Below, one piece after another: positions 1,215 to 22,217 of a DNA stretch of 64,000 nucleotides. The stretch's first letter is position 1; every line of letters begins with the position of its first letter. Both the position numbers and the translations under genes were made by a program. The notes beneath the pieces were generated by a model. That model was not told the origin of the DNA, ran no database searches, and worked only from the letters and a program-made list of their open reading frames with translations. The stretch spans positions 8,409,366 through 8,473,365 of the forward strand of contig NZ_AP018207.1 in assembly GCF_002367995.1 (NCBI RefSeq), read 5' to 3'. This DNA is from Calothrix brevissima NIES-22 (GTDB taxonomy: Bacteria; Cyanobacteriota; Cyanobacteriia; Cyanobacteriales; Nostocaceae).

Positions 1215-3167
1215 ATGAATCTTTTAGCTCTTGAGCAATTATGGGCAAAGACTTCCGGTAGCCCCCAAATTTGTATTGCTGTACTCGATGGACTGATTGA
1301 TTTCAAGCATCCATGCTTCCTGGGAGCAGACTTGACTCAGATACCGACCTTAGTTACAGGAGAGGCAAATCCGAATGGCGGAATGTCTTTGCATGGTACT
1401 CATGTTGCAAGCATCATCTTTAGTCAGTTGGGTAGTCCTGTCAGGGGAATTGCCCCTCAATGCAAGGGATTGAGCATTCCGGTGTTTGCAGATGAAGGAC
1501 GGCAGTTGTCTCAACTCGATTTAGCCCGTGCGATCGAGCAAGCTGTCAACGCTGGAGCGCATATCATCAACATTAGCGGTGGACAACTCACCGATGAAGG
1601 CGAAGCGGAAGGGTGGTTACGACGCTCTGTTCAGCTTTGCCAGGAAAAGAATGTGCTGATTGTAGCGGCAGCAGGCAATGATGGCTGTGCTTGTTTACAC
1701 GTTCCGGCAGCCCTACCTGCGGTGTTAGCGGTTGGAGCTATGGATGACAAGGGTAAGCCCATTAACTTCAGTAATTGGGGTAAGAGTTACCAGAATCAAG
1801 GCATTGTAGCACCGGGTGAAAACATCTTAGGAGCAAAGCCAGGAGGTGGGACAACTCAGTTGAGTGGTACAAGTTTTGCCGCACCGATCGTCACAGGAGT
1901 TGCAGCCCTGTTATTAAGTTTACAAATTCAGCGCGGTGAAACCCCGAATCCGCAAAAAGTTAGGGACGCTATCTTAAAGAGTGCTTTACCCTGTACAACT
2001 GCCGATACAACAGACACAAGTCGTTGTTTAGTTGGCAAGCTGAATATCTCTGGTTCACTTGAATATCTTTTTGGAGGTACTGTGTCAGACCCTACAGAAG
2101 CAGTTGCTCCCTCTGGTTGCGGCTGTACTGGAATCAAACCCACTGAGGTAGAAGCATCCGAGCAACCTGCCGCAACCCTTGTCCCTGCACCTGTAAACCA
2201 GTCTCAATTGGTTGCAAGTTCAATCGCGCCCTCAATTCCTCAATCTATAACCCCCTCAATACCTGTTATGCAATCATCTGTATCGAACTTTGTCACCGCT
2301 AGCCAAGCACCTAGCGAACTTGCTGGTAGTCAATTTGTATATGCTTTAGGAACCCTTGGCTATGACTTTGGGACGGAAGCAAGGCGAGATTCTTTCAAAC
2401 AATTGATGCCTGCTAATAGTATTGGTGATATTACCGTGCCAGCAAATCCCCACGATGCACGGCAAATGGTAGATTACTTGGCAGCAAGTCCTTCGGAATC
2501 CAGGTCGCTAATTTGGACATTGAATATCGAATTGACCCCAATTTACGCGATCGAACCCCAAGGAGCATTTGCGCGAGACACCTACGCAGTTTTGCAAGAG
2601 CTATTAGCAGGGCAAATTCAAGCCGAAACCAGCGAGGAATTTGTAGAGCGGGTGAGTATTCCTGGCGTTTTGACCGGAAAAACCGTGAAGCTGTTTTCTG
2701 GGCAAGTTGTGCCGTTGATTGCACCCCAGAACCCACGGGGAATATATGGCTGGAAGATTAATACTTTAGTATCTGCTGCTATAGAAACGGTGCAAACCAC
2801 CGTGGGAGATGCCGAAGAAGAGGCAATTCGGCGCACCTTGGGCAGTTTCCTCAACCGGATTTACTACGACTTACGGAATCTTGGCACCACTTCTCAAGAT
2901 CGGGCACTCAACTTTGCGGCGACGAATGCGTTTCAGGCTGCTTCCACCTTTGCCGAAGCGGTAGCAGCAGGGATGGAACTCGACAGCATTGATATTGAGA
3001 AAAGCCCCTTCTGTCGCTTGGATAGCGATTGTTGGGATGTGAAACTGAAGTTTTTTGACCCAGAAAACAGCCGTCGTGCCAAGAAAATATTCCGCTTCAC
3101 CGTTGACGTGAGTGACCTGATTCCAGTGACGCTGGGCGACGTGAGAACTTGGTCTTCGGCGTATTAA
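1215..3167 (+). CDS. patA: PatA-like cyanobactin maturation protease (subtilisin S8)
   Basis: This 650-residue protein has an N-terminal S8 subtilisin domain with the triad Asp25 (IAVLDG), His60 (SLHGTHVAS) and Ser220 (LSGTSFAAP), plus the oxyanion Asn155 (AAGNDG). A Pro/Ser-rich linker (about 290-372) holds a SGCGCTG motif. From about 374 (YALGTLGYDFGTEARRD) comes the C-terminal domain of unknown function shared by PatA and PatG. In cyanobactin pathways PatA cuts the leader from the modified precursor. The Asp-to-His spacing is short, without the insertion seen in the PatG-like protein at 9218, which fits the N-terminal protease role. The two precursor genes follow immediately. ATG at 1215 gives a normal PatA-like N-terminus. 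Confidence 0.92.
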   Translation: MNLLALEQLWAKTSGSPQICIAVLDGLIDFKHPCFLGADLTQIPTLVTGEANPNGGMSLHGTHVASIIFSQLGSPVRGIAPQCKGLSIPVFADEGRQLSQLDLARAIEQAVNAGAHIINISGGQLTDEGEAEGWLRRSVQLCQEKNVLIVAAAGNDGCACLHVPAALPAVLAVGAMDDKGKPINFSNWGKSYQNQGIVAPGENILGAKPGGGTTQLSGTSFAAPIVTGVAALLLSLQIQRGETPNPQKVRDAILKSALPCTTADTTDTSRCLVGKLNISGSLEYLFGGTVSDPTEAVAPSGCGCTGIKPTEVEASEQPAATLVPAPVNQSQLVASSIAPSIPQSITPSIPVMQSSVSNFVTASQAPSELAGSQFVYALGTLGYDFGTEARRDSFKQLMPANSIGDITVPANPHDARQMVDYLAASPSESRSLIWTLNIELTPIYAIEPQGAFARDTYAVLQELLAGQIQAETSEEFVERVSIPGVLTGKTVKLFSGQVVPLIAPQNPRGIYGWKINTLVSAAIETVQTTVGDAEEEAIRRTLGSFLNRIYYDLRNLGTTSQDRALNFAATNAFQAASTFAEAVAAGMELDSIDIEKSPFCRLDSDCWDVKLKFFDPENSRRAKKIFRFTVDVSDLIPVTLGDVRTWSSAY

Positions 3168-3265
3168 TACAGCCTTCTTCATACAAAAGAAGCGGTCAGA
3201 CCCACCGACTGAGCAACGGCTCGACAACGGGACATCAACAAACAGCAAATTGGAGATAAACTCTC

Positions 3266-3493
3266 ATGGATAAGCAAAAATTAATGCCCCAAGCGGCACA
3301 ACCTGTCAACCGCATTACGACTGGACAATTGCCTGCTGAGTTAGCTGAATTGTCGGAAGAAGTTCTACAACTGTATGGCGACTGTAGCGCATCAGTACTA
3401 GCATCTCGAGTAGAAGTGTGTGCATGTGGTGATTGTGTACCGCCATGCATGGCGGGTGACTGTTTCGGCTGTACGCGAACCTGTATCAGATAA
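3266..3493 (+). CDS. patE1: PatE-like cyanobactin precursor peptide 1, follower out of frame
   Basis: This 75-residue peptide has a leader (1-47) of cyanobactin type: MPQAAQPVNR, TTGQL, then LAELSEE at 26-32, the sequence that recruits the PatD heterocyclase. SVLAS (43-47) sits where PatE has its GLEAS leader-cleavage site. The following core (48-73) carries seven Cys (52, 54, 57, 61, 66, 69, 73). Copy 2 then continues SYDGDDAE, but this copy stops after Ile-Arg. One base out of frame, 3489-3512 reads Asp-Asn-Gly-Asp-Asp-Ala-Gly-stop, so a +1 insertion between 3485 and 3494 seems to have removed the macrocyclase recognition tail. It may be inactive, make a linear product, or reflect a sequencing error. 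A TTGGAGA site lies 10 bases before the ATG. Confidence 0.88.
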   Translation: MDKQKLMPQAAQPVNRITTGQLPAELAELSEEVLQLYGDCSASVLASRVEVCACGDCVPPCMAGDCFGCTRTCIR

Positions 3494-3814
3494 TGGAGAC
3501 GATGCAGGATAGGTTCCTACTCCATTCGGTTCTCAGATCTCTCTCAAAGTTCTCTTTCCGTCCGTACTGGAGCCTGGTTTGTTCAGATGAATTGATCTGC
3601 GATCGCCCTCACCTGGGGGTTTCCGTTATCTGGCACTTATTAGGTTGAGGAAGATGAAGGATTAGGGAAGTTGCGATCGCGCTTCGCCTACCCTAAGTAA
3701 TCGCTTTTCACGGTATATAAAGTGCGATTTTACACAAAAAACGGTCAGACCTACCAACTGAGTAACGGCTCGACAACGGGACACGAACTCACAACAAATT
3801 GGAGAAAAACTCTC

Positions 3815-4051
3815 ATGGATAAGCAAAACTTAATGCCCCAAGCGGCACAACCCGTCAACCGGATCACTACTGGGCAATTGTCTGCTGAGTTGGCTGAATT
3901 GTCGGAAGAAGCTCTGCAACTACATAGTAATGATAGTTCATCAGTACTGGCATCTACCAGTAAGTGTGCTCACAATTTTGCTGGATGTGGATTGTGTGGA
4001 GGGACGCAGTGTGTAGGAAGGTGTTCTTATGACGGAGATGATGCAGAATAA
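3815..4051 (+). CDS. patE2: PatE-like cyanobactin precursor peptide 2, intact
   Basis: The start is ATG 3815, not the longer in-frame extension to 3722: the peptide then begins MDKQNLMPQ like copy 1 and has TTGGAGA 10 bases upstream. The 78 residues comprise a leader (1-42) that differs from copy 1 at only three of the first 36 positions and includes LAELSEE, then SVLAS (43-47) as the PatA-type cleavage site. The predicted core is residues 48-70 with Cys at 51, 58, 61, 66 and 70, followed by SYDGDDAE, a PatG-type recognition tail like the AYDGE of patellamide precursors. The core ends in Cys just before SYDG, as in classic azoline-ending cores. At 23 residues it is long for a cyanobactin. Confidence 0.93.
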   Translation: MDKQNLMPQAAQPVNRITTGQLSAELAELSEEALQLHSNDSSSVLASTSKCAHNFAGCGLCGGTQCVGRCSYDGDDAE

Positions 4052-4256
4052 GTTCCCGCTCCATTCGGTTCTCAAATCTCTCTCAAAGTTCCTTTTCCGC
4101 CCGTTCTGAAGCCTGGTTTGCTCGGATGAATTGACCTGTGCTCGCCCTATCCTGGGGGTTTTCCGTTACCTGGCACCTGTTGGGTTGAGGGGAAGATGAG
4201 GGATTAGGGGAAGCAGGGGAGGTTTTCCGCTTCTCTTGCCCCCTTTGATATCTAAA

Positions 4257-4297
4257 CCAGCTAGAAGTTTATTTCCCCAATTAGACTTTCTAGCTGG
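4257..4297 (+). promoter_or_regulatory. Hairpin between the precursor genes and downstream biosynthetic genes
   Basis: CCAGCTAGAAGT (4257-4268) pairs with ACTTTCTAGCTGG (4285-4297) around a 16-base loop, with one bulged base. No T-run follows, so it is not a standard terminator. Its position after the precursors and before the enzymes suggests an RNA-processing or attenuation site that could keep precursor mRNA in excess. That role is inferred. Confidence 0.5.
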
Positions 4298-4339
4298 CTT
4301 ACCTACACAACGTTTTGGATCATCAAAAGCAACCAAACT

Positions 4340-4570
4340 ATGAAACTTCCTAAACAATCTCCTCCTGTCAAACGTCCCGATTTAATTCAGCCCCACGAGA
4401 CTGTTGATGTGGTTCACGGCAGCGTGGAAGATTTGGTTAATATTCGGATTAAATTACTGCATGGTGCGAACTATAACGACCCCGCAGGGTTTCAATACCG
4501 CAGCTATAACCAACTCAGAACTTCCGGTGGCTGTGGTTGCTTTCACGCCGTCGCTAGGACGTTCTTGTAA
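4340..4570 (+). CDS. Small protein in the cyanobactin cluster; possible PatB/PatC-type gene or divergent precursor
   Basis: This 76-residue protein is not recognised. Its start, LPKQSPPVKR (residues 3-12), resembles the first conserved block of cyanobactin leaders (MPQAAQPVNR in the neighbouring precursors), with P, PV and R aligned. It has no LAELSEE motif and no YDG follower. It ends with a SGGCGCF stretch, and the PatA linker also carries SGCGC. It lies between the precursors and the LamG gene, in the slot where small patB/patC-like genes of unknown function often sit. It could be such a gene or a third, divergent precursor. No strong ribosome binding site precedes ATG 4340. Confidence 0.55.
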   Translation: MKLPKQSPPVKRPDLIQPHETVDVVHGSVEDLVNIRIKLLHGANYNDPAGFQYRSYNQLRTSGGCGCFHAVARTFL

Positions 4571-4612
4571 TTCCATTGACCATAAACAAACTCAATTGAA
4601 ACTGTTGCAACT

Positions 4613-5416
4613 ATGTCTAAGTCATCCGAAAAAGAACAGAACGTACACCTTGAGAGTCGCCTGAAGGTGCTGGTTTTCGATACCAATTCTCAGGGAATTG
4701 CTGTAGGTAGCGGAGCATTAAGACCACAAGGACGGTTCACTATCGAAGCCTGGGTATGTCCTGCTAAAGATGCGAGAAAGCAGGTGATTTTTGCTGATGG
4801 GGAAACGCGGTTTTATCTAGAAGGCGGCGAATTAAAGTTTCAGCCTACCCCAAATGCAGAGGCAATTTCCTCAGTTACTGCGGGTTTGGTGGCTGGTAAT
4901 TGGTATCATGTTGCAGTGGCACGGGGGGGAAGTCGTCCCGGCGATACGAAGCTCTACATTAACGGCGGAGAAAACGACAATAAAACGGTAATTTCTCCAG
5001 TTTTGTCATTTGGCAATACCTATTTAGGAGGATATCCAGAGGTGCCAGACTCCAGCTTTCATGGCAAATTGCTGGAAGTGCGGGTATGGCGATTCGCGCG
5101 ATCGCTAGCCGAAATTCAGGCAAATATGACCTACTTCCTCACTGGGCGGGAACTGGGATTAGTGCGCTGCTGGACATTAACTGAAGGGTTTGGCAGCACG
5201 ATCGGCGATAAAACGACCAATCGAGCAATGGGAACTGTTCTGGGTAATGCTGCTTGGCAAGAGTGCGAGATTCCCATTAAAGTCAATCTCAATGCTCAGG
5301 AACGGTTAACGCGATCGACCGGATTCGAGGATTACGCCTACTGGTATAAGGAAATAGCAAAGCAACAAAAAGCCGAGGCAGATCCTATCTTCCAACGGGG
5401 ACGGATTTGGGCATAG
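4613..5416 (+). CDS. LamG-like (concanavalin A fold) jelly-roll protein
   Basis: The 267 residues contain a LamG-like domain at about 20-215. Typical strands are visible: FTIEAWVCP, TRFYLEGGELKF, GNWYHVAVARG, TKLYINGG, NTYLGGYP, and FHGKLLEVRVWRFARSLAEIQANM. There is no signal peptide, so it is probably cytoplasmic. These domains usually bind sugars or proteins and are not catalytic. The gene lies 42 bases after the small ORF and 62 before patD, in the same direction, so it is probably in the operon. I know of no LamG protein among the standard cyanobactin genes. A substrate-binding, scaffolding or product-binding role is only a guess. Confidence 0.8.
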   Translation: MSKSSEKEQNVHLESRLKVLVFDTNSQGIAVGSGALRPQGRFTIEAWVCPAKDARKQVIFADGETRFYLEGGELKFQPTPNAEAISSVTAGLVAGNWYHVAVARGGSRPGDTKLYINGGENDNKTVISPVLSFGNTYLGGYPEVPDSSFHGKLLEVRVWRFARSLAEIQANMTYFLTGRELGLVRCWTLTEGFGSTIGDKTTNRAMGTVLGNAAWQECEIPIKVNLNAQERLTRSTGFEDYAYWYKEIAKQQKAEADPIFQRGRIWA

Positions 5417-5478
5417 CGATCGCATTTCTCGTTAAAGCTTTTCTACTTCAGATATTCAACATTAGGTTATAAAGTGTC

Positions 5479-7755
5479 ATGAAAATTCCCCAAATTAAAC
5501 CCCACTTCCGCGTCGAAATTGTTGAACCCAAAAATGTTTATTTACTCAGCGAATCTGCTACTTACGCGCTGACAGGTAGCCTTTATTGCCAAATTCTTCC
5601 CTTTCTGAATGGGCAACATACAAGAGAAGAAATAATTCAAAAACTCGATGGGCAAATTCTCCCCGAACACTTTGATTATGTCCTCGATCGCCTGGATGAA
5701 AAAGGCTACCTTACTGATGCTGCTCACAGTCTAACCCGCGAAGCAGCAGCATTTTGGAGTCTGCTGAATGTCGATCCGCTACTCGTAAGCGATCGCTTAC
5801 CCCAGACAAAAGTTTTCGTCACAACTATTGGTGCTGTTGACGGGCAAGATTTGATTGCAGCGTTGCAAGCAGTAGGAATTCCCGTACAGTTAGGACAGCC
5901 AGAGAATTCTACATCGGGGGTTCATTCCCTGTGGGTAGTTCTCACTGATGACTATCTTCAGCCAGAACTAAGCCGGATCAATAAAATGGCATTGCAAACT
6001 CAGCAACCTTGGCTACTCATTAAACCAAACGGTGGGATACCGTGGTTTGGTTCTATCTTTACTCCCCAAGAAACAGGTTGCTGGGAATGTTTGGCTCATC
6101 GATTACAGGGGAATCGAGAGGTGGAGAATTCGATTTTACAACAGCAAGGAAAGACGGGGAATGGATGTTTACCGATTGCTGTAGCTGGGTTACCTTCCAC
6201 GGAGCAAACCGCGATCGCACTCACGACTACCGAAGTTGCTAAATGGCTGGTGCAGCAGATTGTTCCAGAAGCTAAAATTCAGACTTTAGCTGGGAAAATC
6301 ATCACTTTCGATCAAACAAATTTTACCCTGAAAACCCATTCCCTAACTCAGCGCCCCCAATGTCGTGCTTGTGGTAATCCGGATTTAGTTAGTCAACAAG
6401 TTAACAGTGCGATCGCTCTCACCAGTCGTAAAAAGCTGTTTACTCAGGATGGTGGACATCGCGCCTTTACACCAGATCAAATCTTAAAACGTTACGAACA
6501 TTTAATTAGCCCAATTACGGGAGTTGTTAGTAGCTTAACGCGAGCGTCCGATCCAGAAAACCCCTTTGTCCATACCTACAGCGCGGTTCACGCTTTTGGT
6601 TCCGCTTCTAGTTTGGGTCAATTGCGGAAATCCCTTGGTCATAAAAGCGGTGGTAAAGGTAAAACCGATCGCCAATCTCAAGCCAGTGGATTTTGTGAGG
6701 CGGTGGAACGCTATTCTGGTATTTACCAGGGTGACGAACCCCGAATCAAGTCTAAGTTCGCAGATTTGGACGGTGCTATTCATCCTGCACAATGTTTGCT
6801 ATTGAGCGCAACTCAGTATCAAAATCGGGAAGAATTGAATCAAAAGGCGATCGTCGATCACGATTGGATTCCCCAACCCTTTGACGAAACCCAAATCATT
6901 GACTGGACACCTGTTTGGTCACTCACCGAGCAAACCCACAAATATCTCCCCACTGCCTTCTGTTATTACAATTACAAGCTTGACAAAGAACATCGCTTCT
7001 GCTTTGCCGATTCTAATGGTAACGCGGCGGGTGGAACCCTGGAAGATGCTATTTTACAAGGATTTTTGGAACTAGCAGAGCGCGATAGTGTAGCGATTTG
7101 GTGGTATAATCGTCTACAGCGTCCTGGTGTGGATTTAGCTAGTTTTAACGAACCTTATTTACTAGATTTGCAAGCCTGGTATGGCACTCAGCAGAGAGAA
7201 TTGTGGGTTTTGGATTTAACTACAGATTTGAATATTCCCGCATTTGCCGCCGTTTCTCGTTATACGGGTGGAGACCAGGAATACATTATTGCGGGTTACG
7301 GCGCACATTTCGATGCCAAAATTGCCATTTTACGAGCGGTGACGGAGGTGAATCAAATGGGGGGTCACCTACCAGAGAAGTATCCCTCAATCAATTCCGC
7401 GTCTGCATTGGATTACTGGTTTACTCACGCAACTATCGCTAACCAACCCTATTTAGTACCTTCTCAAGCTCCTGCCAAACAAGCCGCTGATTATCCTCAG
7501 CAGTGGAGCGACGATATCTATCAAGATGTCTTGAACTGTGGGGAGATTGCGAGAAAAGTAGGGCTGGAAATGTTGGTACTTAATCAGACTCGTCCCGATA
7601 TTGGTTTACCTGTGGTCAAGGTTATTGTACCTGGTTTACGTCACTTTTGGTCGCGTTTTGGGGCTGGAAGATTGTATGATGTGCCCGTAAAACTCGGCTG
7701 GCTACCGACTCCCTTGGCTGAAGAGCAGATGAATCCTATGCCAATGGTGTTTTAG
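5479..7755 (+). CDS. patD: PatD/TruD/LynD-type cyanobactin cyclodehydratase (YcaO)
   Basis: This 758-residue enzyme is close to TruD/LynD in length and sequence. It makes azolines from Cys (and Ser/Thr) in the precursor core using ATP. The N-terminal RiPP-recognition domain (about 1-85, IKPHFRVEIVEPKNVYLL) binds the LAELSEE leader. An E1-like domain follows, with zinc-binding CxxC pairs in GCWECLAHRLQGNREVE and CRACGNPD. The YcaO domain (about 330-758) contains HSFGSASSL-like AFGSASSLGQLR, SGFCEAVERYSG, DSNGNAAGGTLEDAI and ELAERDS. The C-terminus PMPMVF resembles the Pro-rich tail of azoline-forming YcaO enzymes. With many Cys in both cores, thiazolines are the expected products. Its stop is one base before the oxidase start, so translation is probably coupled. 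Confidence 0.96.
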   Translation: MKIPQIKPHFRVEIVEPKNVYLLSESATYALTGSLYCQILPFLNGQHTREEIIQKLDGQILPEHFDYVLDRLDEKGYLTDAAHSLTREAAAFWSLLNVDPLLVSDRLPQTKVFVTTIGAVDGQDLIAALQAVGIPVQLGQPENSTSGVHSLWVVLTDDYLQPELSRINKMALQTQQPWLLIKPNGGIPWFGSIFTPQETGCWECLAHRLQGNREVENSILQQQGKTGNGCLPIAVAGLPSTEQTAIALTTTEVAKWLVQQIVPEAKIQTLAGKIITFDQTNFTLKTHSLTQRPQCRACGNPDLVSQQVNSAIALTSRKKLFTQDGGHRAFTPDQILKRYEHLISPITGVVSSLTRASDPENPFVHTYSAVHAFGSASSLGQLRKSLGHKSGGKGKTDRQSQASGFCEAVERYSGIYQGDEPRIKSKFADLDGAIHPAQCLLLSATQYQNREELNQKAIVDHDWIPQPFDETQIIDWTPVWSLTEQTHKYLPTAFCYYNYKLDKEHRFCFADSNGNAAGGTLEDAILQGFLELAERDSVAIWWYNRLQRPGVDLASFNEPYLLDLQAWYGTQQRELWVLDLTTDLNIPAFAAVSRYTGGDQEYIIAGYGAHFDAKIAILRAVTEVNQMGGHLPEKYPSINSASALDYWFTHATIANQPYLVPSQAPAKQAADYPQQWSDDIYQDVLNCGEIARKVGLEMLVLNQTRPDIGLPVVKVIVPGLRHFWSRFGAGRLYDVPVKLGWLPTPLAEEQMNPMPMVF

Positions 7756-7756
7756 T

Positions 7757-9148
7757 ATGTCCGATACCTTTACCCTCGCCTTTCGTCCTGAGATTGTCTT
7801 TACCGATGAAAGCGATCGCTTGACTGTGCAATTTGCTACTCACCGTTTCACTCTGGATTGTCCCAAACCAGGATTGCGATCGGCATTAGAACACCTAAAG
7901 CATTCTGCCCTAACCGCAACCGAGTTAACCGCTTTGGTTGTAGAAGCTGATGGTGTGGAAGACGGTTTAAACTTTGAAGCTGAGTTACAAAAGCTGATTA
8001 ACCTGGGCTGGATTTGCCATTCTGTTTTACCGTTAGCAACCGCCATTGCGATCGCTACTGATTATCAATTGATTTCTCCGGTTTTTGATTGGCATCAGCA
8101 TTTTACCCTATCTCGCTTTGCCTTTTTACGTCAAGAAAATCAACAATTCGTTTTAGAATCTCCTTTATCTAAAGCCAAAATTATTCTTCTAGATTGGCGT
8201 GCTGCTGCTGTAATTGGGAAACTGGCTCAGTCTGATTCGTTATTCACGTTAGAGCGTTTAGCAGAGTCGTTAATTGATGTAAAAATAGTGCGATCGCTGA
8301 TTCAATTGCTGATTGCAACTAAGATGATTTCCCTAGAACCTGAAAGTGAAGCGTTAGCGGAATGGCAATTTCACAATCTTTTGTTTCATCGGCAAACCCG
8401 TTCACAGCGATTAGACGATGTGCGAAAGTTAAAAATGCCGAGCTTCGAGGATAGTGAGCGATCGCACTTTATCAAGTCTCCCATGAGCGATGGAGTCATT
8501 TTCTTAGAGAAACCTCACCTAGAAGCCTTAGCCAAAACAGATATTTCCCTCACCCAAGCGATCGAATCTAGACAATCAATTCGTGAGTACGACAACCAAC
8601 CCATTACCCTTAACCAGTTGGGAGAATTCCTCTATCGCTGTGCCAGGGTGAAAGGAGTTTATACCCATGAGGGGGACATTATGAACATTGGAGAATTTAC
8701 AAAACGTCCTTATCCTGCTGGTGGTGCTTTATACGAGTTAGAAATTTATCCTGTGATTAATCGCTGTCAGGGATTGGATTCAGGATTATACCACTATCAG
8801 CCATTGTCTCATGCCTTGTATGCAATCGCAGATGGGAATTCAGAAATTGAAGCCTTAATTTTCGATGCCTGGAAATCAACGGGACAGCAAGATGTTCCTC
8901 AAGTGCTTCTAATTGTAACGGCTCGATTTGGGCGATTGTTTTGGAAATACTATGGCATCGGTTATGGGCTGATTTTAAAACATATTGGTGTTTTGTTTCA
9001 AACATTTTACCTGGTTGCCACTGCCATGCAATTAGCTCCCAGTGCGATCGGTGGAGGAAATTCCGAACTGTTCAGCAAAATTGCCAATCTTAACGAATAC
9101 GAAGAGTCTTCTGTTGGAGAGTTTATTCTCGGTTCACTAAAGCGATGA
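7757..9148 (+). CDS. SagB/ThcOx-type FMN-dependent azoline oxidase, free-standing
   Basis: The 463-residue protein has an N-terminal region of about 230 residues (RRE/peptide-binding-like) and a C-terminal nitroreductase-fold domain from about 265. That domain shows SIREYDNQPITLNQLGEFLY, RPYPAGGALYELEIYP, GLYHYQP and the LAPSAIGGGNSELFSKI ending typical of SagB-type dehydrogenases. It would oxidise thiazolines to thiazoles using FMN. In the patellamide pathway this domain is fused inside PatG; here it is a separate gene directly after patD, and the PatG-like protein at 9218 lacks it. No frameshift or missing motif is visible. Confidence 0.92.
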   Translation: MSDTFTLAFRPEIVFTDESDRLTVQFATHRFTLDCPKPGLRSALEHLKHSALTATELTALVVEADGVEDGLNFEAELQKLINLGWICHSVLPLATAIAIATDYQLISPVFDWHQHFTLSRFAFLRQENQQFVLESPLSKAKIILLDWRAAAVIGKLAQSDSLFTLERLAESLIDVKIVRSLIQLLIATKMISLEPESEALAEWQFHNLLFHRQTRSQRLDDVRKLKMPSFEDSERSHFIKSPMSDGVIFLEKPHLEALAKTDISLTQAIESRQSIREYDNQPITLNQLGEFLYRCARVKGVYTHEGDIMNIGEFTKRPYPAGGALYELEIYPVINRCQGLDSGLYHYQPLSHALYAIADGNSEIEALIFDAWKSTGQQDVPQVLLIVTARFGRLFWKYYGIGYGLILKHIGVLFQTFYLVATAMQLAPSAIGGGNSELFSKIANLNEYEESSVGEFILGSLKR

Positions 9149-9217
9149 ATAACAATCTCTCCTAAAAGTTTCACCAATTGAGCAACTTGATAATACTACA
9201 TTTAATCGATTACTGCT

Positions 9218-11524
9218 ATGCCTGACCTTAATACCATTCCCGGTTTTGCTGCCCTGCAAGCTCTGACTCTTGGTGATTCTCGGATCAAAATTGCTGTTTT
9301 AGATGGATCAGCCGATCTCGAACGTGCTTGCTTTCGGGGTGCAAACTTGAGCAAAGCCACAGCTTTTTGGCAAACAGACTTAGAGCCAATCGAGCCAATG
9401 TATATTCAAAGGGAACTGCAAATTACGAAGTTAGGAGACAAAAAAAAGGCTTTAAAGAAAGCATTGAAGCAGATCGAAAAGCAAGACACGGATACAGCCC
9501 CAGTGCTATCGGTGGCTGAGGTAATGCCATCGCGATCGCACCATCTCATTGCAACCATCTTCAATACGGTATTAGAAAACACAGAAGCGCCGTTAGTAGA
9601 ACAATATCACCAGTTAAAAGACTCCAAGCAACAGCAAACAACTCTCAAACCAGAAATTCCCCCAGACATCAACTATTATAAAGCAGAAATTGAAGCATTA
9701 GAGGTAGAAATCAAGGCATTAGAAGAATCAATTCCCAAGTCGGTGCGCGATCGCCTCGATGCTGTCTTTCATGCAACAGGCATCTTTGGTATAATGTTTG
9801 GGCAACCTGGTTCCCCAGTGCAAGGTATTGCTCCTTACTGCACCGCTATTAACATTCCGCTATTTGAAACCCCAACGAGCGATGAGTCACTCTCACCGTT
9901 GAACTTAGCTCATGCCTTTAACCTAGCATTGGAACTAGGAGTAAACATCATCCACTGTGCTGCCTGTCATCCAACTCAAACTGGGTTTGCCCACGAAATG
10001 ATTCAGAAAGCAGTGAAACAGTGCCAAGATAACAATATCCTAATTGTGGCTCCATCAGGCAACAATAAAGGCGAATGGTTTTGCGTTCCGGCGATTTTGC
10101 CAAATGTCTTGGCAGTGGGTATGATGAAAGACGATGGGCAACCCGCCAACTACAGCAATTGGGGTAGACAGTATCAAAAACAAGGTATCCTGGCACCAGG
10201 CGAAAATATCCCAGCAGCACAACCCGGCACCGATGAGCCGGCACTTCAACAAGGAACCAGTTTAGCTGCCCCCTTAATAACTGGTATATGTGCATTACTC
10301 ATGAGTCTGCAACTACAAAGAGGCGAAAAACCCAATGCTGAAGCAGTACGGACTGCTTTGCTCAATAGTGCCATTAAGTGCGACCCTAAGGAAATTGCAG
10401 AACCGGAGCGCTGTTTAGTGGGTAAATTAAATATTCCCGGAGCCTACCAATTACTAACTGGGCAGCTTTTACCCAACATTCAAGCAAGTTCATTTGTCCT
10501 TCCAGAAATTATTTTGCCAGCATTCAGCAACTCTTTGCCACATAGTTCCAAATCTGCGGTCATCAGTGCCTCCCAACCTCTTAATGAGGTTGGCAATTCT
10601 ACCGCTACTCAACTTGTTACCGCTTCAGCCACCATTGCAGACTCTACCTTTCTTACCCCCTCCACCATCACCCCCAGCGCCGTCTCCACCAAAGTCTACG
10701 CTCTTGGCACCCTTGGCTACGATTTCGGCACTGAAGCCCGCCGCGACACCTTTAAACAACGGATGTCTGCGGTCAGCAGAGATGGCGTATTGATTCCTGC
10801 CAATCCCTATGATGCTCGCCAGATGGTTAATCACCTGGAGTTAAGCCCCTCTGAAGCTAAATCACTCATCTGGACGCTGAATCAGGAACTCACCCCCGTT
10901 TACGCCCTAGAACCCCAAAAAGCTTTTGCTAGTGAAATCTATGCTGTCTTTCAGATGCTGCTAGCTGGACAAATTCAGCCCGAAGAGAGCGATGATTATA
11001 TTGAGCGAGTCAGCATTCCCGGCAATTTAACCGATCGCACCGTCGAACTTTTTTCCGGGCAGGTTGTTCCTGTCCTGGCACTACCCAATATTAGAGGGAT
11101 ATACGGTTGGCAGGTAAATGCCCTTGTGGAAGCAGCCATTAACACTGTTACTCCTGGAGCCAGCGAACCTGACAACGTGAGAATGCGACGTTCTCTCAAG
11201 AGTTTCCTGCATCGCATCTACTACGACCTCCGCAACTTAGGACACCTTGATCGCGATCGCGCCCTCAATTTTGCTGCTACAAACGCCTTCCAAGCTGCCT
11301 CCACCTTTGCTGAAGCCATTAATAGCGGTATGGAACTAGACAGCATTGAGATTGAAAAAAGCCCGTTTTGTCGCCTTAACAGTAATTGTTGGGACGTGAT
11401 GCTGAAGTTTTTCGACTCAGAAAATAGCCGTCGCGCCAAAAAGGTATATCGATTCACAATCGATGTTGCCAATCTTATACCAGTGACCTTGGGTGCAGTG
11501 CGATCGTGGTCAGTGCCACGTTAG
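9218..11524 (+). CDS. patG: PatG-like cyanobactin protease/macrocyclase without fused oxidase
   Basis: The 768 residues contain an S8 domain with Asp29 (IAVLDG), His185 (FHATG, in place of the usual HGTH), Asn282 (PSGNN) and Ser348 (GTSLAAP), so the triad is complete. Between Asp and His lies an insertion of over 100 residues (about 55-180), charged and helical, with a strong coiled-coil-like part (150-175). In PatG a helical insertion at this point caps the active site and allows macrocyclisation; PatA lacks it, as does the protease at 1215. The C-terminal domain (from about 493, YALGTLGYDFGTEARRD) closely matches that of the PatA-like protein. Expected role: cleavage at SYDGD and joining of core ends, or plain hydrolysis. 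Confidence 0.9.
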   Translation: MPDLNTIPGFAALQALTLGDSRIKIAVLDGSADLERACFRGANLSKATAFWQTDLEPIEPMYIQRELQITKLGDKKKALKKALKQIEKQDTDTAPVLSVAEVMPSRSHHLIATIFNTVLENTEAPLVEQYHQLKDSKQQQTTLKPEIPPDINYYKAEIEALEVEIKALEESIPKSVRDRLDAVFHATGIFGIMFGQPGSPVQGIAPYCTAINIPLFETPTSDESLSPLNLAHAFNLALELGVNIIHCAACHPTQTGFAHEMIQKAVKQCQDNNILIVAPSGNNKGEWFCVPAILPNVLAVGMMKDDGQPANYSNWGRQYQKQGILAPGENIPAAQPGTDEPALQQGTSLAAPLITGICALLMSLQLQRGEKPNAEAVRTALLNSAIKCDPKEIAEPERCLVGKLNIPGAYQLLTGQLLPNIQASSFVLPEIILPAFSNSLPHSSKSAVISASQPLNEVGNSTATQLVTASATIADSTFLTPSTITPSAVSTKVYALGTLGYDFGTEARRDTFKQRMSAVSRDGVLIPANPYDARQMVNHLELSPSEAKSLIWTLNQELTPVYALEPQKAFASEIYAVFQMLLAGQIQPEESDDYIERVSIPGNLTDRTVELFSGQVVPVLALPNIRGIYGWQVNALVEAAINTVTPGASEPDNVRMRRSLKSFLHRIYYDLRNLGHLDRDRALNFAATNAFQAASTFAEAINSGMELDSIEIEKSPFCRLNSNCWDVMLKFFDSENSRRAKKVYRFTIDVANLIPVTLGAVRSWSVPR

Positions 11525-14763: not shown

Positions 14764-16752
14764 CTAAGCAATCCGCGCTTGTACTTGAGCTTTACTTAAT
14801 TCACTCAACAAACGATGTGCTTGGTGCTTGTAGAGGGGATATTGTAAAGTTGCTGGAAGTTGGTTCATTAAGGTTCTGGCTGTATGCATATCACAGCCAG
14901 AAACGCGAGAAATTACGGCTGCGCCTTCAAAGGTGGCTTCAGCTGATAGTGCGGATTCTACTTTGACTAAAACTTGGGGTGGTGCGATCGCGCCTCGCTC
15001 GACTCGTTGTAAGCCTTCAATAGTGGCTAAAACTATCAAGCGATCGCCTACAGCTAGTTTAATATCATCAGAGGGCATTAACTTAGAATTTGCCTGACCA
15101 GCTTTAGCATGAAGAATTGGGACAATACCATATCCATAAGCAATTTCCCCTATTAATTTGCCATTGAGCGTATCATTAGCTTCTATTCGATATTCAGTGA
15201 CGAGTGTCGTTTGTCCGTTGAGGCGAAACAGATTCAGAACATTTTCCCCAAACGCCGCCGCCGCAAACGCTTCTGCTGCTAAAGCATAAACACCCAAAAC
15301 CCTAGCATAAGGTAGTAATCGCGCTACATTCTCGCTAAAATGCGGATCGAAGGTGCGAATTACTAAATTAGCTGTGGGATTGCTAGCACGGGCTGTCAAT
15401 GCAATTTCTAAATTAGTTACCTCATCATCAGTAACAACAATCACGCTTTTGGCAGTAGCCAAATTAACTTGATTGAGGGCATTTTTGATATTGCCAACGA
15501 TGAGCGGCATTGTCGATAATATTTCCGAGTCGATTTCCTTGGTATTAATGCCTACCACAGGTTGCTTGAGTTCTTGTAATAGCTGGGCTACCAGTTTACC
15601 AACTCTTCCTAAACCAACTAATACTATATGCTCGGCTTTAGGTATTGGTAGACGCCGCCGAGAAAACTGAAACTTGGCAGCTAAGACACGTTCGGTCATA
15701 ATGGCATAAAGAATGCCGACAAAAACTGTACCCGCTACAGTTTCACTAATGCTGAATAAATGTAACCACCAAGGAATTGCAAAAGGTAGTTGTAGCTGTC
15801 CAAATAGGTTATCATAGCCGCCGAGACTTAAAACTAAAGATACATTCAGGGCATCTTGAAAGCTTAGTTGGGGATATTGCAGTTTGTAAAGTAAAGTGCC
15901 ACAGAAAAACCAACTCATCATAATTAACCCGCCTACCAAAGCAACACGGCGAGTTTGACTGCTATCTTGCCAAAATTGCAGCAGTTTGTGGCGCAAATTT
16001 TGCCACCTGAGACTCAGGATGGTTGCCCAAAAAAATTGTTGGCGACTAGTAACAGATTGTACTGTGGGTGTAGGAAGGCGATCGCTCACTTCAATATATG
16101 CAACTGTATCGCCTCTTTCTATTGGCTGATTCGGCTCCCATTGATAGAATGCTTTTGGTAAAGATTCTCCGGCTCTAGCGTGAGCTAAAACTCGTCGATG
16201 AGCATTATTCAAGTCTTGAATTGGGGAATGGATAGCCCAACGTTGAGAAACATCTACAGGTGCGCGAAACACTCTCAGTAAGCGATTTTCTAACGTAAAT
16301 AAGCCTCTAGTTTCACTACTTAAAGCTCCTAAAGCAAAGCTTTTAGCTGGTAATTCAGTAGCTTCAAAAGCGACAAAATTACCCAAATTTTGACTAAGTA
16401 ATTCATTGAGATTTTCTTGAGCGGAACGAATCACCAAGCGAATTTGCGGATTGAGCGATCGCGCCGCAAAGGCTGCGGCAATATTTACTCGCTCATCGCT
16501 AGTTACAATCAAAATTGCCCGACAATGAATAATTCCCGCTTGTTCGAGAATTTTTGGTTGACGACAATCACCAATTATCAGATTATCTACTAAATTAGGT
16601 AACTCCGGAATTTCCCATCTTTGAATATTTGTAACTTCAATTGCATTGACATTCACGCCAAATTCTTTGAGAACAGAAATACAATATTGTCCCAAGTTAC
16701 CCAGCCCACAAACTAAGAAACTGTTGGCATTGATAGTGGCATTCTGTCCCAT
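14764..16752 (-). CDS. Membrane protein with two RCK (TrkA-N/TrkA-C) NAD-binding modules
   Basis: The 662 residues have a first Rossmann module (about 10-135, CGLGNLGQYC), a linker with a possible TrkA-C-like part (about 155-230), a hydrophobic block with two or more membrane helices (about 275-355), a second Rossmann module (from about 375, VGLGRVGKLVAQLL) and a TrkA-C domain (about 505-590). The order resembles K+-channel/Kef-type proteins. Between the helices, LSLGGYDNLFG stands where a channel would have a TVGYG-like filter, so ion conduction is uncertain. The gene is divergent from the DUF962 gene, with about 30 bases between starts. A role in K+ or ion homeostasis is the best guess. Confidence 0.82.
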   Translation of the reverse strand: MGQNATINANSFLVCGLGNLGQYCISVLKEFGVNVNAIEVTNIQRWEIPELPNLVDNLIIGDCRQPKILEQAGIIHCRAILIVTSDERVNIAAAFAARSLNPQIRLVIRSAQENLNELLSQNLGNFVAFEATELPAKSFALGALSSETRGLFTLENRLLRVFRAPVDVSQRWAIHSPIQDLNNAHRRVLAHARAGESLPKAFYQWEPNQPIERGDTVAYIEVSDRLPTPTVQSVTSRQQFFWATILSLRWQNLRHKLLQFWQDSSQTRRVALVGGLIMMSWFFCGTLLYKLQYPQLSFQDALNVSLVLSLGGYDNLFGQLQLPFAIPWWLHLFSISETVAGTVFVGILYAIMTERVLAAKFQFSRRRLPIPKAEHIVLVGLGRVGKLVAQLLQELKQPVVGINTKEIDSEILSTMPLIVGNIKNALNQVNLATAKSVIVVTDDEVTNLEIALTARASNPTANLVIRTFDPHFSENVARLLPYARVLGVYALAAEAFAAAAFGENVLNLFRLNGQTTLVTEYRIEANDTLNGKLIGEIAYGYGIVPILHAKAGQANSKLMPSDDIKLAVGDRLIVLATIEGLQRVERGAIAPPQVLVKVESALSAEATFEGAAVISRVSGCDMHTARTLMNQLPATLQYPLYKHQAHRLLSELSKAQVQARIA

Positions 16753-17550: not shown

Positions 17551-18546
17551 ATGCAAATATTTAATAATTGGAATATAGTTGCTAAAGGATGGTATATTGC
17601 TTGTCCTAGTAATGGATTATCTCAAAAACAAGCCAAATCCGTAGAAATTTGTGGACAAAAAATTGCTATCTTTCGCGGTGAAGATGGAAAAATCCGGGCT
17701 TTAGATGCTTACTGTCCCCATTTAGGAACAGACTTAGGAATTGGAAATGTTGAGGGTAATTTAATTCGTTGTGCGTTTCATCATTGGGCATTTGATGAAA
17801 CAGGAATCTGTCAAAATATTCCTTGTCAATCAGCAATTCCCCAACAGGCGAAAGTACAAGCCTACGCAACAGAAGAAAAGTATGGTTTTATTTGGATTTA
17901 TCCCGAAGCTGAAGCACCTGAAAGCGTAGCTGATTTTGATGAATTAAAAGATCAAGAAATTATTGCCCAAGCTGATACAGCATTTGAAAGAAACTGTCAT
18001 CATCATATTTGTATGATGAATGGAATTGACGCCCAACATTTAAAAACAATTCATCATTTAGATATCAAAATGGATTTGTCGTTACATCGTAGTCAATTAG
18101 GTACACAAATTGACTTTACAATGCAGGGAGAATTTCCGCAAACGACATGGCGAGAAAGGTTAGGTAAAAGATTTCTCGGTTCTAATTATGAATATTCCAT
18201 GCGCTATGCAGATGGTTGTATCGGTTTGTTAACAATGATGAAAAAAGTTAAACTTTTTCCACCATTGCATATGTTATATGCATATACGCCAATTGCACCT
18301 GGAAAAACGCGGATTCAACCAATTTATGTAACTGCAAAACGTCGCGGAATTGGGGGATACTTGCTGAGTCGGTTTTTGTTGTTGTGTACTCGCTGGGCTT
18401 ATTACATGCTCCGAGATGAGGATGGTAAAATTTACGATAATATTCGCTTTCAGCCTAAGTTACTTTTGAGCATCGATCGCCCATTGGCTCAGTATATCGA
18501 ATATGTGAATCAACTAGAACCGTCTCGTTGGTCAGTTAGAGGCTAG
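17551..18546 (+). CDS. Rieske non-heme iron oxygenase 1
   Basis: The 331 residues have an N-terminal Rieske domain with Cys55-Pro-His57 (CPHLG) and Cys74-x2-His77 (CAFHHW) for the [2Fe-2S] cluster. The catalytic domain carries the mononuclear iron ligand pattern Asp-x2-His-x4-His in NGIDAQHLKTIHH. The pattern is closest to ketosteroid-hydroxylase/VanA-type single-component oxygenases. It would hydroxylate, demethylate or otherwise oxidise an unknown substrate using an external electron donor, perhaps the ferredoxin at 24633. It opens a run of oxidative genes on the same strand. Confidence 0.9.
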   Translation: MQIFNNWNIVAKGWYIACPSNGLSQKQAKSVEICGQKIAIFRGEDGKIRALDAYCPHLGTDLGIGNVEGNLIRCAFHHWAFDETGICQNIPCQSAIPQQAKVQAYATEEKYGFIWIYPEAEAPESVADFDELKDQEIIAQADTAFERNCHHHICMMNGIDAQHLKTIHHLDIKMDLSLHRSQLGTQIDFTMQGEFPQTTWRERLGKRFLGSNYEYSMRYADGCIGLLTMMKKVKLFPPLHMLYAYTPIAPGKTRIQPIYVTAKRRGIGGYLLSRFLLLCTRWAYYMLRDEDGKIYDNIRFQPKLLLSIDRPLAQYIEYVNQLEPSRWSVRG

Positions 18547-18791
18547 GGGTTAGGGATTGGAATGTGCGATCGCAACATCATACCCCATTAAACCAAAAAT
18601 CAACCCCGTAGGGGCGGGGTTTCCCCACCCTTGTCAACAATCCCTATGTCAAAATCAATAACGATCGCATTTCTCAGTAACATAAATAACCATTTTTAAA
18701 TCTGTCACATTCAACCGTAATCACAGCAATTTCCCCGATAGATTGTTAATGAAGAACATCCCCCTAATCGAGTTTAGGTAAAATCCACATA

Positions 18792-19532
18792 ATGAAAAGC
18801 TGGCTAGTTCCGGTGCAAAAGCTGCAAATGAGCGATCGCATAGCCATGTATGCATTGCTAAAAAATCATTTTCAAGGCGTTACCTGGCAAGGGTTTGAGG
18901 CTGATTTAGCGCGAAAAAACTGGGTATTGTTGCTAAGAGAAGAGATTACCAACAGTCTCAAAGGTTTTTCTACGCTCATGTTACAGTCTACAACGCTTGC
19001 TGGAGAGAAAATTACTGTAGTCTATTCCGGCGATACCATTGTCGATCCTAGTGCTTGGTCAAGTACAACTTTACCCCGCACCTGGATTGCGGCGGTAAAT
19101 TTTCTCCGTGAATACTATACAGAAAATAAACTATACTGGCTGTTAATTTGCTCTGGTTTTCGTACCTATCGCTTCCTTCCCACATTTTGGCAAGATTTTT
19201 ACCCCCGCTATGATATCCCCACCCCTAGCGATGTGAGCAATTTAATGTCAACTTTGGCACAAGAATATTATGGCGATACATACGATCAAGCGACTGGTAT
19301 CATTCGCTTTCAAAATCCGCAAATTCTGCGGGAAGGGTTAATTGAAATCCCCCCAGGAAGACAAACTAATCCCCACGTTCAATATTTTGAGCAAATCAAT
19401 CCCGGCTATCGTCAAGGCGATGAATTAGTGTGTTTAACGGAAATCCGCTACGATAATCTTACCCGTGCTGGGCAACGGATGTGGCATTCGGAATCATTGT
19501 TAGAATTTTTCTGTGAATCTGCACTGATTTAA
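18792..19532 (+). CDS. Unknown protein in oxygenase locus, possibly GNAT-like
   Basis: The 246-residue protein is not clearly recognised. The central part (about 60-145: LKGFSTLML, ITVVYSGDTIVDPSAW, TWIAAVNFLREYY, YWLLICSGFRTYRFLPTFW) alternates strands and helices in a way that recalls an N-acyltransferase (GNAT) fold, but no clear acetyl-CoA loop is visible. The gene is followed after 5 bases by the second Rieske gene, so the two are probably translated together. An acyl transfer step on the product of this locus would fit but is inference. Confidence 0.6.
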   Translation: MKSWLVPVQKLQMSDRIAMYALLKNHFQGVTWQGFEADLARKNWVLLLREEITNSLKGFSTLMLQSTTLAGEKITVVYSGDTIVDPSAWSSTTLPRTWIAAVNFLREYYTENKLYWLLICSGFRTYRFLPTFWQDFYPRYDIPTPSDVSNLMSTLAQEYYGDTYDQATGIIRFQNPQILREGLIEIPPGRQTNPHVQYFEQINPGYRQGDELVCLTEIRYDNLTRAGQRMWHSESLLEFFCESALI

Positions 19533-19537
19533 CTTTT

Positions 19538-20542
19538 ATGCATACTACCAGCCCACAGTTAATCTTTAATAATCCGCAACAATTTGTGCAAGGATGGTAT
19601 TGGGCATTGCCATCCAAAAAATTAAAAGTTGGCAAAGTCAAAGCTGTAACCCTACTGGGTAGAAAACTAGCAATTTATCGGGGAAACAGTGGAAAAGTCA
19701 AAGTGGTAGATGCGCATTGTCCCCACATGGGCGCACATTTAGCGGAAGGTAAAGTAGAAGGTGAGGGAATTCGTTGCTTTTTCCATAACTGGAAATACGA
19801 TGAACAAGGAATCTGTGTAGATGTTCCTTCTTTAGGAAAACCCTTACCTGTATGTATCAAAACCTGGTCAACAGCCGAGAAATACGGGATGATTTGGGTA
19901 TGGGTAGGAGAAGATTCGCCAACTGCGCTACCTTTTGTCCCCGAATTAGAGAATATAGATTGTGACTATATATTAGGAACGCGATTTAGCAAAAATTGTC
20001 ATCCTAACGTGTTATTGATTAATGCAATTGATGCCCATCACTTTAATACAGTACACAATCTGCCTTTAGAAATTGTCTTTGATGCTCAAGATTTTCACTC
20101 TCATGCTATTACCTTTAGCAACATAACTAGAGGCGGTGATGATTCTTTATTAATTCGCCTAATTCGTCCTTTATATAAACAGGAAGTTACCTATAGTATG
20201 TGTTATTGGTATGGTAGTACGGGAACTGTGACATTAGGCCCAGATTTTCTCCATTTCTACATTATTTTTGCCTTAAGAATGTTAGAAGATGGCAAAACTG
20301 AAGGACAAACAATTTTAGTCACTCCCAAGCGACGGGGATTTTTTGGCTGGGTGATTAATCGCTTGTTGCTGTGGTTAACGCAGCAGGTTGGTAACTACTT
20401 TGCTAAAGGCGATACCCAAGTATTTCAAACCATTCAATTTGATTTAAAAACACCCACCAAAGCAGATATTTCAATTCTGCAATTCATTCAGCATGTTAAC
20501 CAACAAAAAGCTTTAACTTGGGGAACATGGAAATTTAATTAG
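19538..20542 (+). CDS. Rieske non-heme iron oxygenase 2
   Basis: The 334 residues carry the Rieske ligands Cys61/His63 (CPHMG) and Cys80/His83 (CFFHNW), and the iron site Asp-x2-His-x4-His in NAIDAHHFNTVHN. It is clearly related to the protein at 17551, with the same domain order and similar spacing, so the pair probably arose by duplication. It follows the unknown gene by 5 bases. A TCATTTG 7-mer repeat begins right after its stop. The substrate cannot be inferred. Confidence 0.9.
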   Translation: MHTTSPQLIFNNPQQFVQGWYWALPSKKLKVGKVKAVTLLGRKLAIYRGNSGKVKVVDAHCPHMGAHLAEGKVEGEGIRCFFHNWKYDEQGICVDVPSLGKPLPVCIKTWSTAEKYGMIWVWVGEDSPTALPFVPELENIDCDYILGTRFSKNCHPNVLLINAIDAHHFNTVHNLPLEIVFDAQDFHSHAITFSNITRGGDDSLLIRLIRPLYKQEVTYSMCYWYGSTGTVTLGPDFLHFYIIFALRMLEDGKTEGQTILVTPKRRGFFGWVINRLLLWLTQQVGNYFAKGDTQVFQTIQFDLKTPTKADISILQFIQHVNQQKALTWGTWKFN

Positions 20543-20791
20543 TCATTTGTCATTTGTCATTAGTCATTAAACCTCTTGCAAAAGTCCTAATTTTCGCGTT
20601 CTTCTTTGCAACGGCAGTTGCTTCAAGTCGGGAAACCCGCCCAACGCACTGCCTCGCCTTTGCGCCTTTGCGTGAGCTTTTTAAGCTGTACTCAACAACG
20701 CCAAAAAATTTATGCAAGAAGTATATTTGTCATTTGTCATTTGTCCCCCTTGTTTTCCTTGTCCCCTTCCCATCTGCCTTATCATATAAAT

Positions 20792-21691
20792 ATGAACAAC
20801 ATTGCTGGACTAGATTTACCACATTTAAATGCTGACGATAAATTACGACGGATACTAACAGCAGCGTTACCCAATCACAGCGATAATTCTGCACAGCCAT
20901 CTTTAGATTATTGGGATGCGCAATTTTTTAATCTACATCAAGTACAAATCTTTCAACAAGCAAGTATCGCGGAACAATCTGCAATACTTCATCTGACTAA
21001 CCGCAGCATTTTTTTAGAATCTTATTTCATTGAAAAAGCTGGCGTTGGTTATATGGCCAAAATGGTATTGTTAGCGGAAACAGTTGAAGAGAGAATGCTA
21101 TATGCATTGTTTACATCTGATGAAGCTACTCACCTTAGCCAAATCGTGAATTTTTTACCAGAACTTGAAGCGAGTCACAGCAAAGATCCCTTTGTGAATT
21201 TACTTGCAGAAGTTGTTGAAAGTGCAGATAAAGCAGTATTGTTGTTTGTGTTGCAAGTGGTTTTAGAAGGATGGGGTTTAAGCCATTATCGCCGTTTGGC
21301 GAAAGAATGCTATCATCCTCAATTAAAACAACTATTCGCCAGTTTTCTCCAAGCAGAATCTCGCCATCACGGTACAGGAACCATGCTATTTAACCGCTAT
21401 CCTGTATCTGCATCGACTCAAGCAGCAGCAATTGATATCTTAGCTTGCTTTCTCTCTATGATACAGATAGGGCCGCAAAGTGTGTTATCTGCGATTGAAC
21501 AGGTAAAAGGAGATTTGACGCGATCGCAAAAAATTCAAATCATGGCAGAATTAGATACACAAACCCACAGTGGTACTAGATTAGAGATATTGCGATCGCT
21601 TATGCATGGTAAATCATCTGAGGCGATTGTTCAAGCTTTAGACGAACGCGGTGCATTTACAGCACTCCCAGCCGATCAATGCGTATCTTAA
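20792..21691 (+). CDS. Ferritin-like diiron protein
   Basis: ATG 20792 is preferred over a longer frame from 20606, because the upstream part is translated from repeats (TCATTTG 7-mers and TTGTCC 9-mers). The resulting 299 residues form a helical protein with possible iron ligands in SYFIEKAG (Glu81), DEATHL (Glu-x2-His, 111-114) and a later AESRHHG (Glu-x2-His). This matches a ferritin-like four-helix diiron site, so oxygenase, desaturase or oxidase activity is possible. It is in line with the Rieske genes upstream and a second diiron-type gene downstream. Confidence 0.75.
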   Translation: MNNIAGLDLPHLNADDKLRRILTAALPNHSDNSAQPSLDYWDAQFFNLHQVQIFQQASIAEQSAILHLTNRSIFLESYFIEKAGVGYMAKMVLLAETVEERMLYALFTSDEATHLSQIVNFLPELEASHSKDPFVNLLAEVVESADKAVLLFVLQVVLEGWGLSHYRRLAKECYHPQLKQLFASFLQAESRHHGTGTMLFNRYPVSASTQAAAIDILACFLSMIQIGPQSVLSAIEQVKGDLTRSQKIQIMAELDTQTHSGTRLEILRSLMHGKSSEAIVQALDERGAFTALPADQCVS

Positions 21692-21926
21692 TTAACGCAA
21701 TTGCGATCGTGTAATATCTTCAAAATATGCGATTTATCAGTAAAACATGGCAATGGCATATCCCCGGAAGCCTCTAGCTTAACAAATCTTTGCCTTACTC
21801 ATCTGGAAAGCGATTAACTTAACTTGATGATAAATATAGTAAGTTTCGCAAAAGTTCACACTGCTGTCAAATCAACATCAATCATGATTCATATCAGTCA
21901 AATATGATGATTCTGACTTCAGTTCT

Positions 21927-22217
21927 ATGAGAGTAAAGGCACAACCTATGAATGAATCTCACCGCATTATCAAAGATAACTTTCTTTATCCCCGCCATCA
22001 GTACTATGGTAAAATTACACCAGAGAACTTATTATTTAATGCAAATCTCCAAGAATTTTCTCAAAAAGTTAGTTACATTTCTTGTTTAGAAACCAACGGT
22101 AAACTTTCACCCGATGAAGCTTATCAGCAGATTAAGCAAATCTGGAAGCAATTAAAAAAATCTAAAAAAGAATTAGGAATTACTGCCAATATCAATGATG
22201 ATGACAACATTTACTAA
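21927..22217 (+). CDS. Small conserved cyanobacterial protein (DUF7219-like)
   Basis: The 96 residues include SHRIIKDNFLYPRHQYYG, LLFNANLQEFSQKVSYI and a helical LSPDEAYQQIKQIWKQLKKS segment. I recall a small cyanobacterial family with this pattern (DUF7219), of unknown function. A second Met at residue 8 (21948) is an equally good start. The gene lies between the two diiron-type genes. It has no signal peptide or Cys-rich motif that would suggest a redox carrier. Confidence 0.7.
   Translation: MRVKAQPMNESHRIIKDNFLYPRHQYYGKITPENLLFNANLQEFSQKVSYISCLETNGKLSPDEAYQQIKQIWKQLKKSKKELGITANINDDDNIY

Follow-up and report, generated by a model that had tools for sequence, protein, structure and literature searches.

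A probable cyanobactin cluster of Calothrix brevissima NIES-22 with a predicted large azol(in)e macrocycle and a second precursor without an in-frame follower

Introduction

Described cyanobactins are 6-20 residues long, or 6-11 where they bear heterocycles (PMC4663559; literature statements here are taken from excerpts of the papers cited). In this study we compare the described systems with a cluster of eight genes, all on one strand, at positions 1215-11524 of a 64,000-nucleotide stretch of Calothrix brevissima NIES-22 (contig NZ_AP018207.1, positions 8,409,366 to 8,473,365; host genome 9.26 Mb in 9 contigs). We refer to this whole stretch as the window. The cyanobactin cluster in the window is probably complete and belongs to a distinct subclade; one precursor, E2, is predicted from its sequence to yield a large azol(in)e macrocycle.

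Several known pathways resemble the window cluster in part. The cyanothecamide (thc) cluster of Cyanothece PCC 7425 encodes ThcOx, and among solved structures that of ThcOx (5lq4) matches the window oxidase best (E 4.6e-180); unlike the products predicted here, those of the thc cluster are heptapeptides with one heterocycle. The trichamide (tri) cluster likewise encodes its oxidase apart from the protease, but it has one precursor, an 11-residue product with two thiazoles and a bidirectional gene order (PMC4663559). In the muscoride pathway, MusD hydrolyzes a terminal Gly-Val in an ATP-driven reaction that yields a linear cyanobactin (PMC10885120). The window PatD is closely related to MusD, for which a structure is solved, and the other window precursor, E1, also has two residues past its last Cys. 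The uncharacterized locus of Calothrix sp. PCC 7103, whose A gene has been grouped at large distance with that of Cyanothece PCC 7425 (PMC3877893), shares the enzyme gene order of the window, with PatA 91% and PatD 92% identical.

Results

Gene content of the cluster

The cluster consists of the following genes:

1215..3167, + strand: PatA-type N-terminal protease, 650 residues, with PatG_D and PatG_C domains (TIGR03895, PF00082, PF18047, PF18065)
3266..3493, + strand: precursor E1, 75 residues, without an in-frame follower (TIGR03678 47.8 bits, cut-off 39.6; PF19155 62.2 bits, cut-off 25)
3815..4051, + strand: precursor E2, 78 residues (TIGR03678 56.3 bits, cut-off 39.6; PF19155 76.4 bits, cut-off 25)
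4340..4570, + strand: PatB-family small protein (TIGR04220 122 bits, cut-off 55)
4613..5416, + strand: PatC-family protein with an N-terminal LamG domain (PF13385 E 4.3e-20; TIGR04447 42.7 bits, cut-off 30)
5479..7755, + strand: PatD-type YcaO cyclodehydratase (TIGR03604, TIGR03882, PF02624, PF21084)
7757..9148, + strand: separate ThcOx/SagB-type azoline oxidase (PF22767, PF18679, TIGR03605)
9218..11524, + strand: PatG-type macrocyclase protease, 768 residues, with a long Asp-His stretch (TIGR03895 821 bits, E 5.5e-247)

All eight exceeded curated family cut-offs in TIGR and PF profile searches, in agreement with an earlier note on this DNA that had recognized PatA-, PatE-, PatD- and PatG-like genes in the interval; PatB and the LamG-PatC were absent from its list. 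PatA scored 937 bits against TIGR03895 (E 4e-282; cut-off 421), with 4h6w and 4h6v as its best solved relatives. PatG, related to the solved structures 4uvq, 4h6x and 4aks, retains the catalytic Asp, His and Ser. Genome-wide, TIGR03895 gave nine matches, with only the two inside the cluster passing the cut-off, and TIGR03678 at E up to 1 retrieved only E1 and E2. The PatD cyclodehydratase and azoline oxidase genes are those expected of an azol(in)e cyanobactin cluster, and the cluster has the PatA/PatG-family proteases, the PatE-type precursors with LAELSEE leaders and the PatB and PatC relatives of cyanobactin pathways. The bimodular methyltransferase/prenyltransferase of aeruginosamide/viridisamide-type linear cyanobactins (criterion from PMC4663559) was not found among the scanned cluster proteins.

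The reading frames of all cluster enzymes are open. Compared with the corresponding locus of genome G389 (L036), their non-synonymous divergence (dN) is 0.033-0.059 and their synonymous divergence (dS) 0.15-0.35; because dN is well below dS, the enzymes are under constraint. The window PatD scored 1010.6 bits against MusD, 1003.5 against TruD and 1000.3 against LynD. These scores do not favor MusD over the other two, and the C-terminus of the window PatD resembles TruD and LynD in alignments; the sequence speaks neither for nor against a MusD-like specificity.

Precursor E2 and its predicted product

E2 has the canonical layout of leader, SVLAS, core and follower:

3956..4024, + strand: E2 core TSKCAHNFAGCGLCGGTQCVGRC, 23 residues, 5 Cys, last residue Cys
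4025..4048, + strand: in-frame follower SYDGDDAE, expected to serve PatG as recognition tail

AYDG-type tails have a role in recognition by PatG (PMC10043927), and with its in-frame SYDGDDAE E2 carries the tail that PatG requires, which supports the earlier proposal of a cyclic product from the second precursor. The same note had assigned the leader, cleavage and follower motifs to the precursors in general; LAELSEE and SVLAS are present in both, but of the two only E2 has SYDGDDAE in its reading frame.

The roles of PatD, PatA, PatG and the oxidase in described pathways (PMC4663559, PMC10885120) make E2 the candidate source of a macrocycle. PatD would bind the LAELSEE leader and convert core Cys of both precursors to thiazolines, some of which the separate ThcOx-type enzyme would oxidize to thiazoles. 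PatA would then cleave after SVLAS, which we infer to be the cleavage site from its position and conservation. PatG would cut SYDGDDAE off E2 after the last Cys and join the ends. The resulting azol(in)e macrocycle of 23 residues would have a neutral monoisotopic mass from 2153.80 (five thiazoles) to 2163.88 (five thiazolines). If the cluster is expressed, we consider this product likely. PatGmac cyclizes a 14-residue peptide efficiently (PMC10043927), and a 22-residue macrocycle has been produced in vitro with cyanobactin enzymes (PMC4663559).

A PatD subclade with a long Asp-His stretch in PatG

A PatD tree of 22 loci, rooted at its midpoint, placed the window in a 13-member group supported at 100/100. 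All 13 have 151-177 residues between the catalytic Asp and His of PatG (155 in the window), with FHATG at the His, compared to 69-71 in the other nine; the spacing in PatA, counted from motif starts in six of the loci, is about 40. These comparisons omit L039, L043, L045 and L048, which are second copies of L037, L108, L105 and L104. L042, L044 (on the same contig as L114), L050 and L051 were also excluded, as were most loci from the survey of the order and some from that of the family. One locus is named L041 in the PatD tree and L107 in the PatG table, and the PatG genes of L104 and L105 are cut by the locus end, with Ser outside view.

The macrocyclization helices of PatG lie in its Asp-His stretch. 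Because of this placement, and because solved PatG-type macrocyclases align on either side of the extra residues in the window PatG, the additional 80-100 residues look like an enlarged macrocyclization insert.

The order A-E-B-C-D-Ox-G on one strand was found in 11 of the 13 group loci, some with additional precursors or PatC pieces in between; the exceptions are L049, which is rearranged, and L114, whose contig starts before B. The gene order that the earlier note called unusual is so when set against described clusters, but its uniqueness had to be rejected since most of the PatD group shares it.

A regular expression identified 85 precursor-like reading frames in the fetched loci, some of them multi-cassette, truncated or mis-cut. 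For the 13-locus group, a regular-expression search gave 35 precursor rows, 26 with a follower and nine without. Cys stands directly before the follower in all 26, which fits the proline/thiazoline requirement of PatG (PMC5708355). With rough cuts, cores of at least 23 residues occur in six of the 13 long-stretch loci (the window, L036, L037, L040, L111 and L112), the other seven having shorter ones only. Among the nine short-stretch loci, and again with rough cuts, L113 has a core of about 25 residues, with an uncertain cut site. These counts are no more than suggestive of a link between long cores and the enlarged stretch of PatG.

Precursor E1 lacks an in-frame follower

Precursor E1 is a separate case because it has no follower in frame:

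3266..3406, + strand: E1 leader with LAELSEE and SVLAS (phmmer matches to PatE entries 4v1u, 4v1t and 2kya)
3407..3490, + strand: E1 core RVEVCACGDCVPPCMAGDCFGCTRTCIR, 7 Cys
3486..3512, + strand: follower-like SDNGDDAG-stop, out of frame with E1

The E1 core ends in Cys-Ile-Arg-stop and measures 26 residues up to the last Cys and 28 up to the stop. The cores of 23-26 residues with 5-7 Cys given previously are correct for E2 (23 residues, 5 Cys) and for E1 up to its last Cys, but not for E1 up to its stop. SDNGDDAG-stop begins one base past the last Cys codon, in another frame. Because it has no follower, E1 should not be cyclized and would stay linear; if processed, it would give a peptide ending in Cys-Ile-Arg with a predicted mass of 2824.03 with seven thiazoles (range to 2838.14), or 2554.84 (range to 2568.95) if Ile-Arg were trimmed and the peptide ended at the last Cys.

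We searched 217 genomes of the family for the CIR-stop DNA element with at most three mismatches and found it in four, namely the window host, Nostoc linckia FACHB-104 (L037) and G389, both of the same genus as the window host, and Calothrix sp. PCC 7103 (G754; L040). A reversed-pattern control gave no matches. The CIR-type precursor is absent from L041 and L108, two of the six nearest loci in the PatD tree. The E1 core DNA is identical to that of FACHB-104 throughout and to that of G389 in all but the first of 28 codons. Codons 2-28 show neither silent nor amino-acid changes relative to G389 (P of no silent change, 0.013), despite a dS of 0.295 in the leader. We rejected this conservation as proof of selection, the silent sites being equally unchanged.

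Related loci

The second precursor differs among three of these loci: the window has a 23-residue core with a follower, G389 a 10-residue core with a follower, and FACHB-104 no follower. The PCC 7103 locus resembles the window in its follower-less CIR-stop precursor and its long Cys-rich cores with SYDGDDAE, but has four precursors and other core sequences. Its CIR-stop core has 31 residues and 10 Cys; the follower-bearing cores have 32 residues with 8 Cys and 43 with 15; and the remaining precursor is degenerate. The long Cys-rich cores of the window are therefore not unique, because those of PCC 7103 are longer and richer in Cys, and G189 and G350 have long single cores too. Unlike the window, PCC 7103 carries between PatD and the oxidase a block (L040:14699-15295) containing a PatA tail, the degenerate precursor (14929-15114) and a PatC piece; the block looks like a duplicated portion of the cluster.

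The window PatG and that of FACHB-104 (L037:10955-13258) are 89% identical in DNA, while the other cluster enzymes are 98-99.6% identical. Because identity falls at PatG only, and because FACHB-104 PatG is nearer to G389 than to the window along most of the gene, we suspect recombination of PatG in FACHB-104.

Precursors matching PF19155 occurred in 7 of 388 genomes of the class, 35 of 388 of the order, 15 of 217 of the family and 3 of 8 of the genus; these samples overlap, and the genome of the window is counted where it was searched. The family of G350 gave 4 of 63 genomes and the control genomes 0 of 14. A pattern scan of an 84,980-species collection returned 52 stretches, 14 of which encode relatives, in 13 loci.

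Some of these loci have features of their own. L066 (G552) has two precursors with cores dense in neighboring Cys (8 and 6 Cys, rough cut), which are further polyazole-peptide candidates. L111 and L112 (G350 and G189) encode precursors with Gly-rich cores about 29-37 residues long, and each of the two clusters contains three further PatC-like stretches. L038 is a second, distant cyanobactin cluster of G389; its precursor has three cassettes, and its PatG belongs to the short Asp-His type.

Other genes in the window

A 103-residue reading frame (884-1195) immediately upstream of PatA has no family match in the TIGR and PF profile searches. Over 76 residues it shares 54% identity with the protein encoded at 55752-57095, and it is also present upstream of the FACHB-104 and G389 clusters. 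At 17551-27242, three Rieske proteins and a member of the fatty acid hydroxylase family are encoded close together, with weak AurF-like and ferritin-like matches, both under the Pfam cut-off; this gene group is possibly another pathway. A phage-lysozyme domain is fused to a DUF4231/SLATT-like domain at 57921-59321.

Discussion

Several observations weigh against a large macrocycle from a complete cluster of this kind. The predicted cores of 23 and 26-28 residues lie outside the described size range (PMC4663559), as had been pointed out before, and a 29-residue peptide was cyclized less well by PatGmac (PMC10043927). The PatA consensus, G(L/V)E(A/P)S (PMC10885120), is unlike SVLAS. Among the group's nine precursor rows without a follower, four lack any Cys past the leader motif and resemble decayed genes, and E2 of FACHB-104 has lost its follower. 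Because the AlphaFold prediction for the N-terminal part of PatG (5 sequences) had a mean predicted local distance difference test score of 36.9, it was not used, and we claim nothing structural for the long stretch.

The product could also differ in its chemistry, or not be made. The CxC and CxxC spacings and the high Cys content would suit disulfide- or metal-bound peptides with few or no azoles, and disulfides are known in the ulithiacyclamide group (PMC4663559) and reported for new cyanobactins in a conference abstract (PMC7024214). However, the cluster does encode PatD and a separate azoline oxidase, each of them under constraint, and E1 matched no solved metal-binding protein in a sequence comparison, itself a weak test; we think maturation of this kind distinctly unlikely. 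An inactive cyanobactin cluster has been reported in Microcystis (PMC3428304), and the cluster may be silent or broken in this strain as well. We regard this as rather unlikely, given the open enzyme reading frames, the intact catalytic residues of PatG and a dN well below dS.

E1 may either yield a linear product or be a precursor whose follower has been lost, and the choice between a working linear precursor and a decayed one is nearly balanced. We put a functional linear precursor only just short of an even chance. Decay through a one-base insertion after the last Cys codon, which would have moved the follower out of frame and left only E2 in use, is a substantial possibility, if below an even chance. 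SDNGDDAG lies at the expected follower position, as decay would predict; the Cys-less rows and the FACHB-104 E2 described above also favor it, and the frozen core shared with G389 could be recent gene conversion; PatG shows recombination within the cluster. However, the CIR-stop form is common to four loci, all with an unbroken leader, SVLAS and start, and in PCC 7103 the core between SVLAS and CIR differs yet is open with 10 Cys. A programmed +1 frameshift past the last Cys would instead restore the follower and give a second, 26-residue macrocycle. The follower-like stretch does run on to a stop in the +1 frame, and between the window and G389 it is free of amino-acid changes, against one in the E2 follower, which is in frame. 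Between the window and PCC 7103, however, the out-of-frame stretch has four base and three of eight amino-acid changes in a small comparison, and the E2 follower, over few sites, three base changes and no amino-acid change. Because it has more amino-acid changes, the out-of-frame stretch seems unconstrained as a follower. In our judgment no known slippery site is apparent there, and on these few sites we consider a frameshift very improbable.

What sets the cluster apart from described ones is its longer, Cys-rich predicted cores, the different PatG of its group and a follower-less precursor type; in other respects its enzymes and presumed chemistry follow the cyanobactin pattern. No described product with the E1 or E2 cores was found in the open-access literature, a weak negative that agrees with the earlier note. 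We further speculate, with considerable doubt, that very large polyazole peptides, reaching 43 residues and 15 Cys in PCC 7103, are made by the subclade with the enlarged PatG insert, and that PatD-type trimming of the conserved Ile-Arg in the follower-less E1 branch, as MusD trims Gly-Val, would yield linear polythiazole acids beside the E2 macrocycles.

If E2 matures as predicted, its product would exceed in size every azole-bearing cyanobactin that we know of, and the window PatG would be a natural enzyme for closing large rings, a reaction that PatGmac performs less well. E1 offers a direct test case for linear, follower-less peptides from this pathway.

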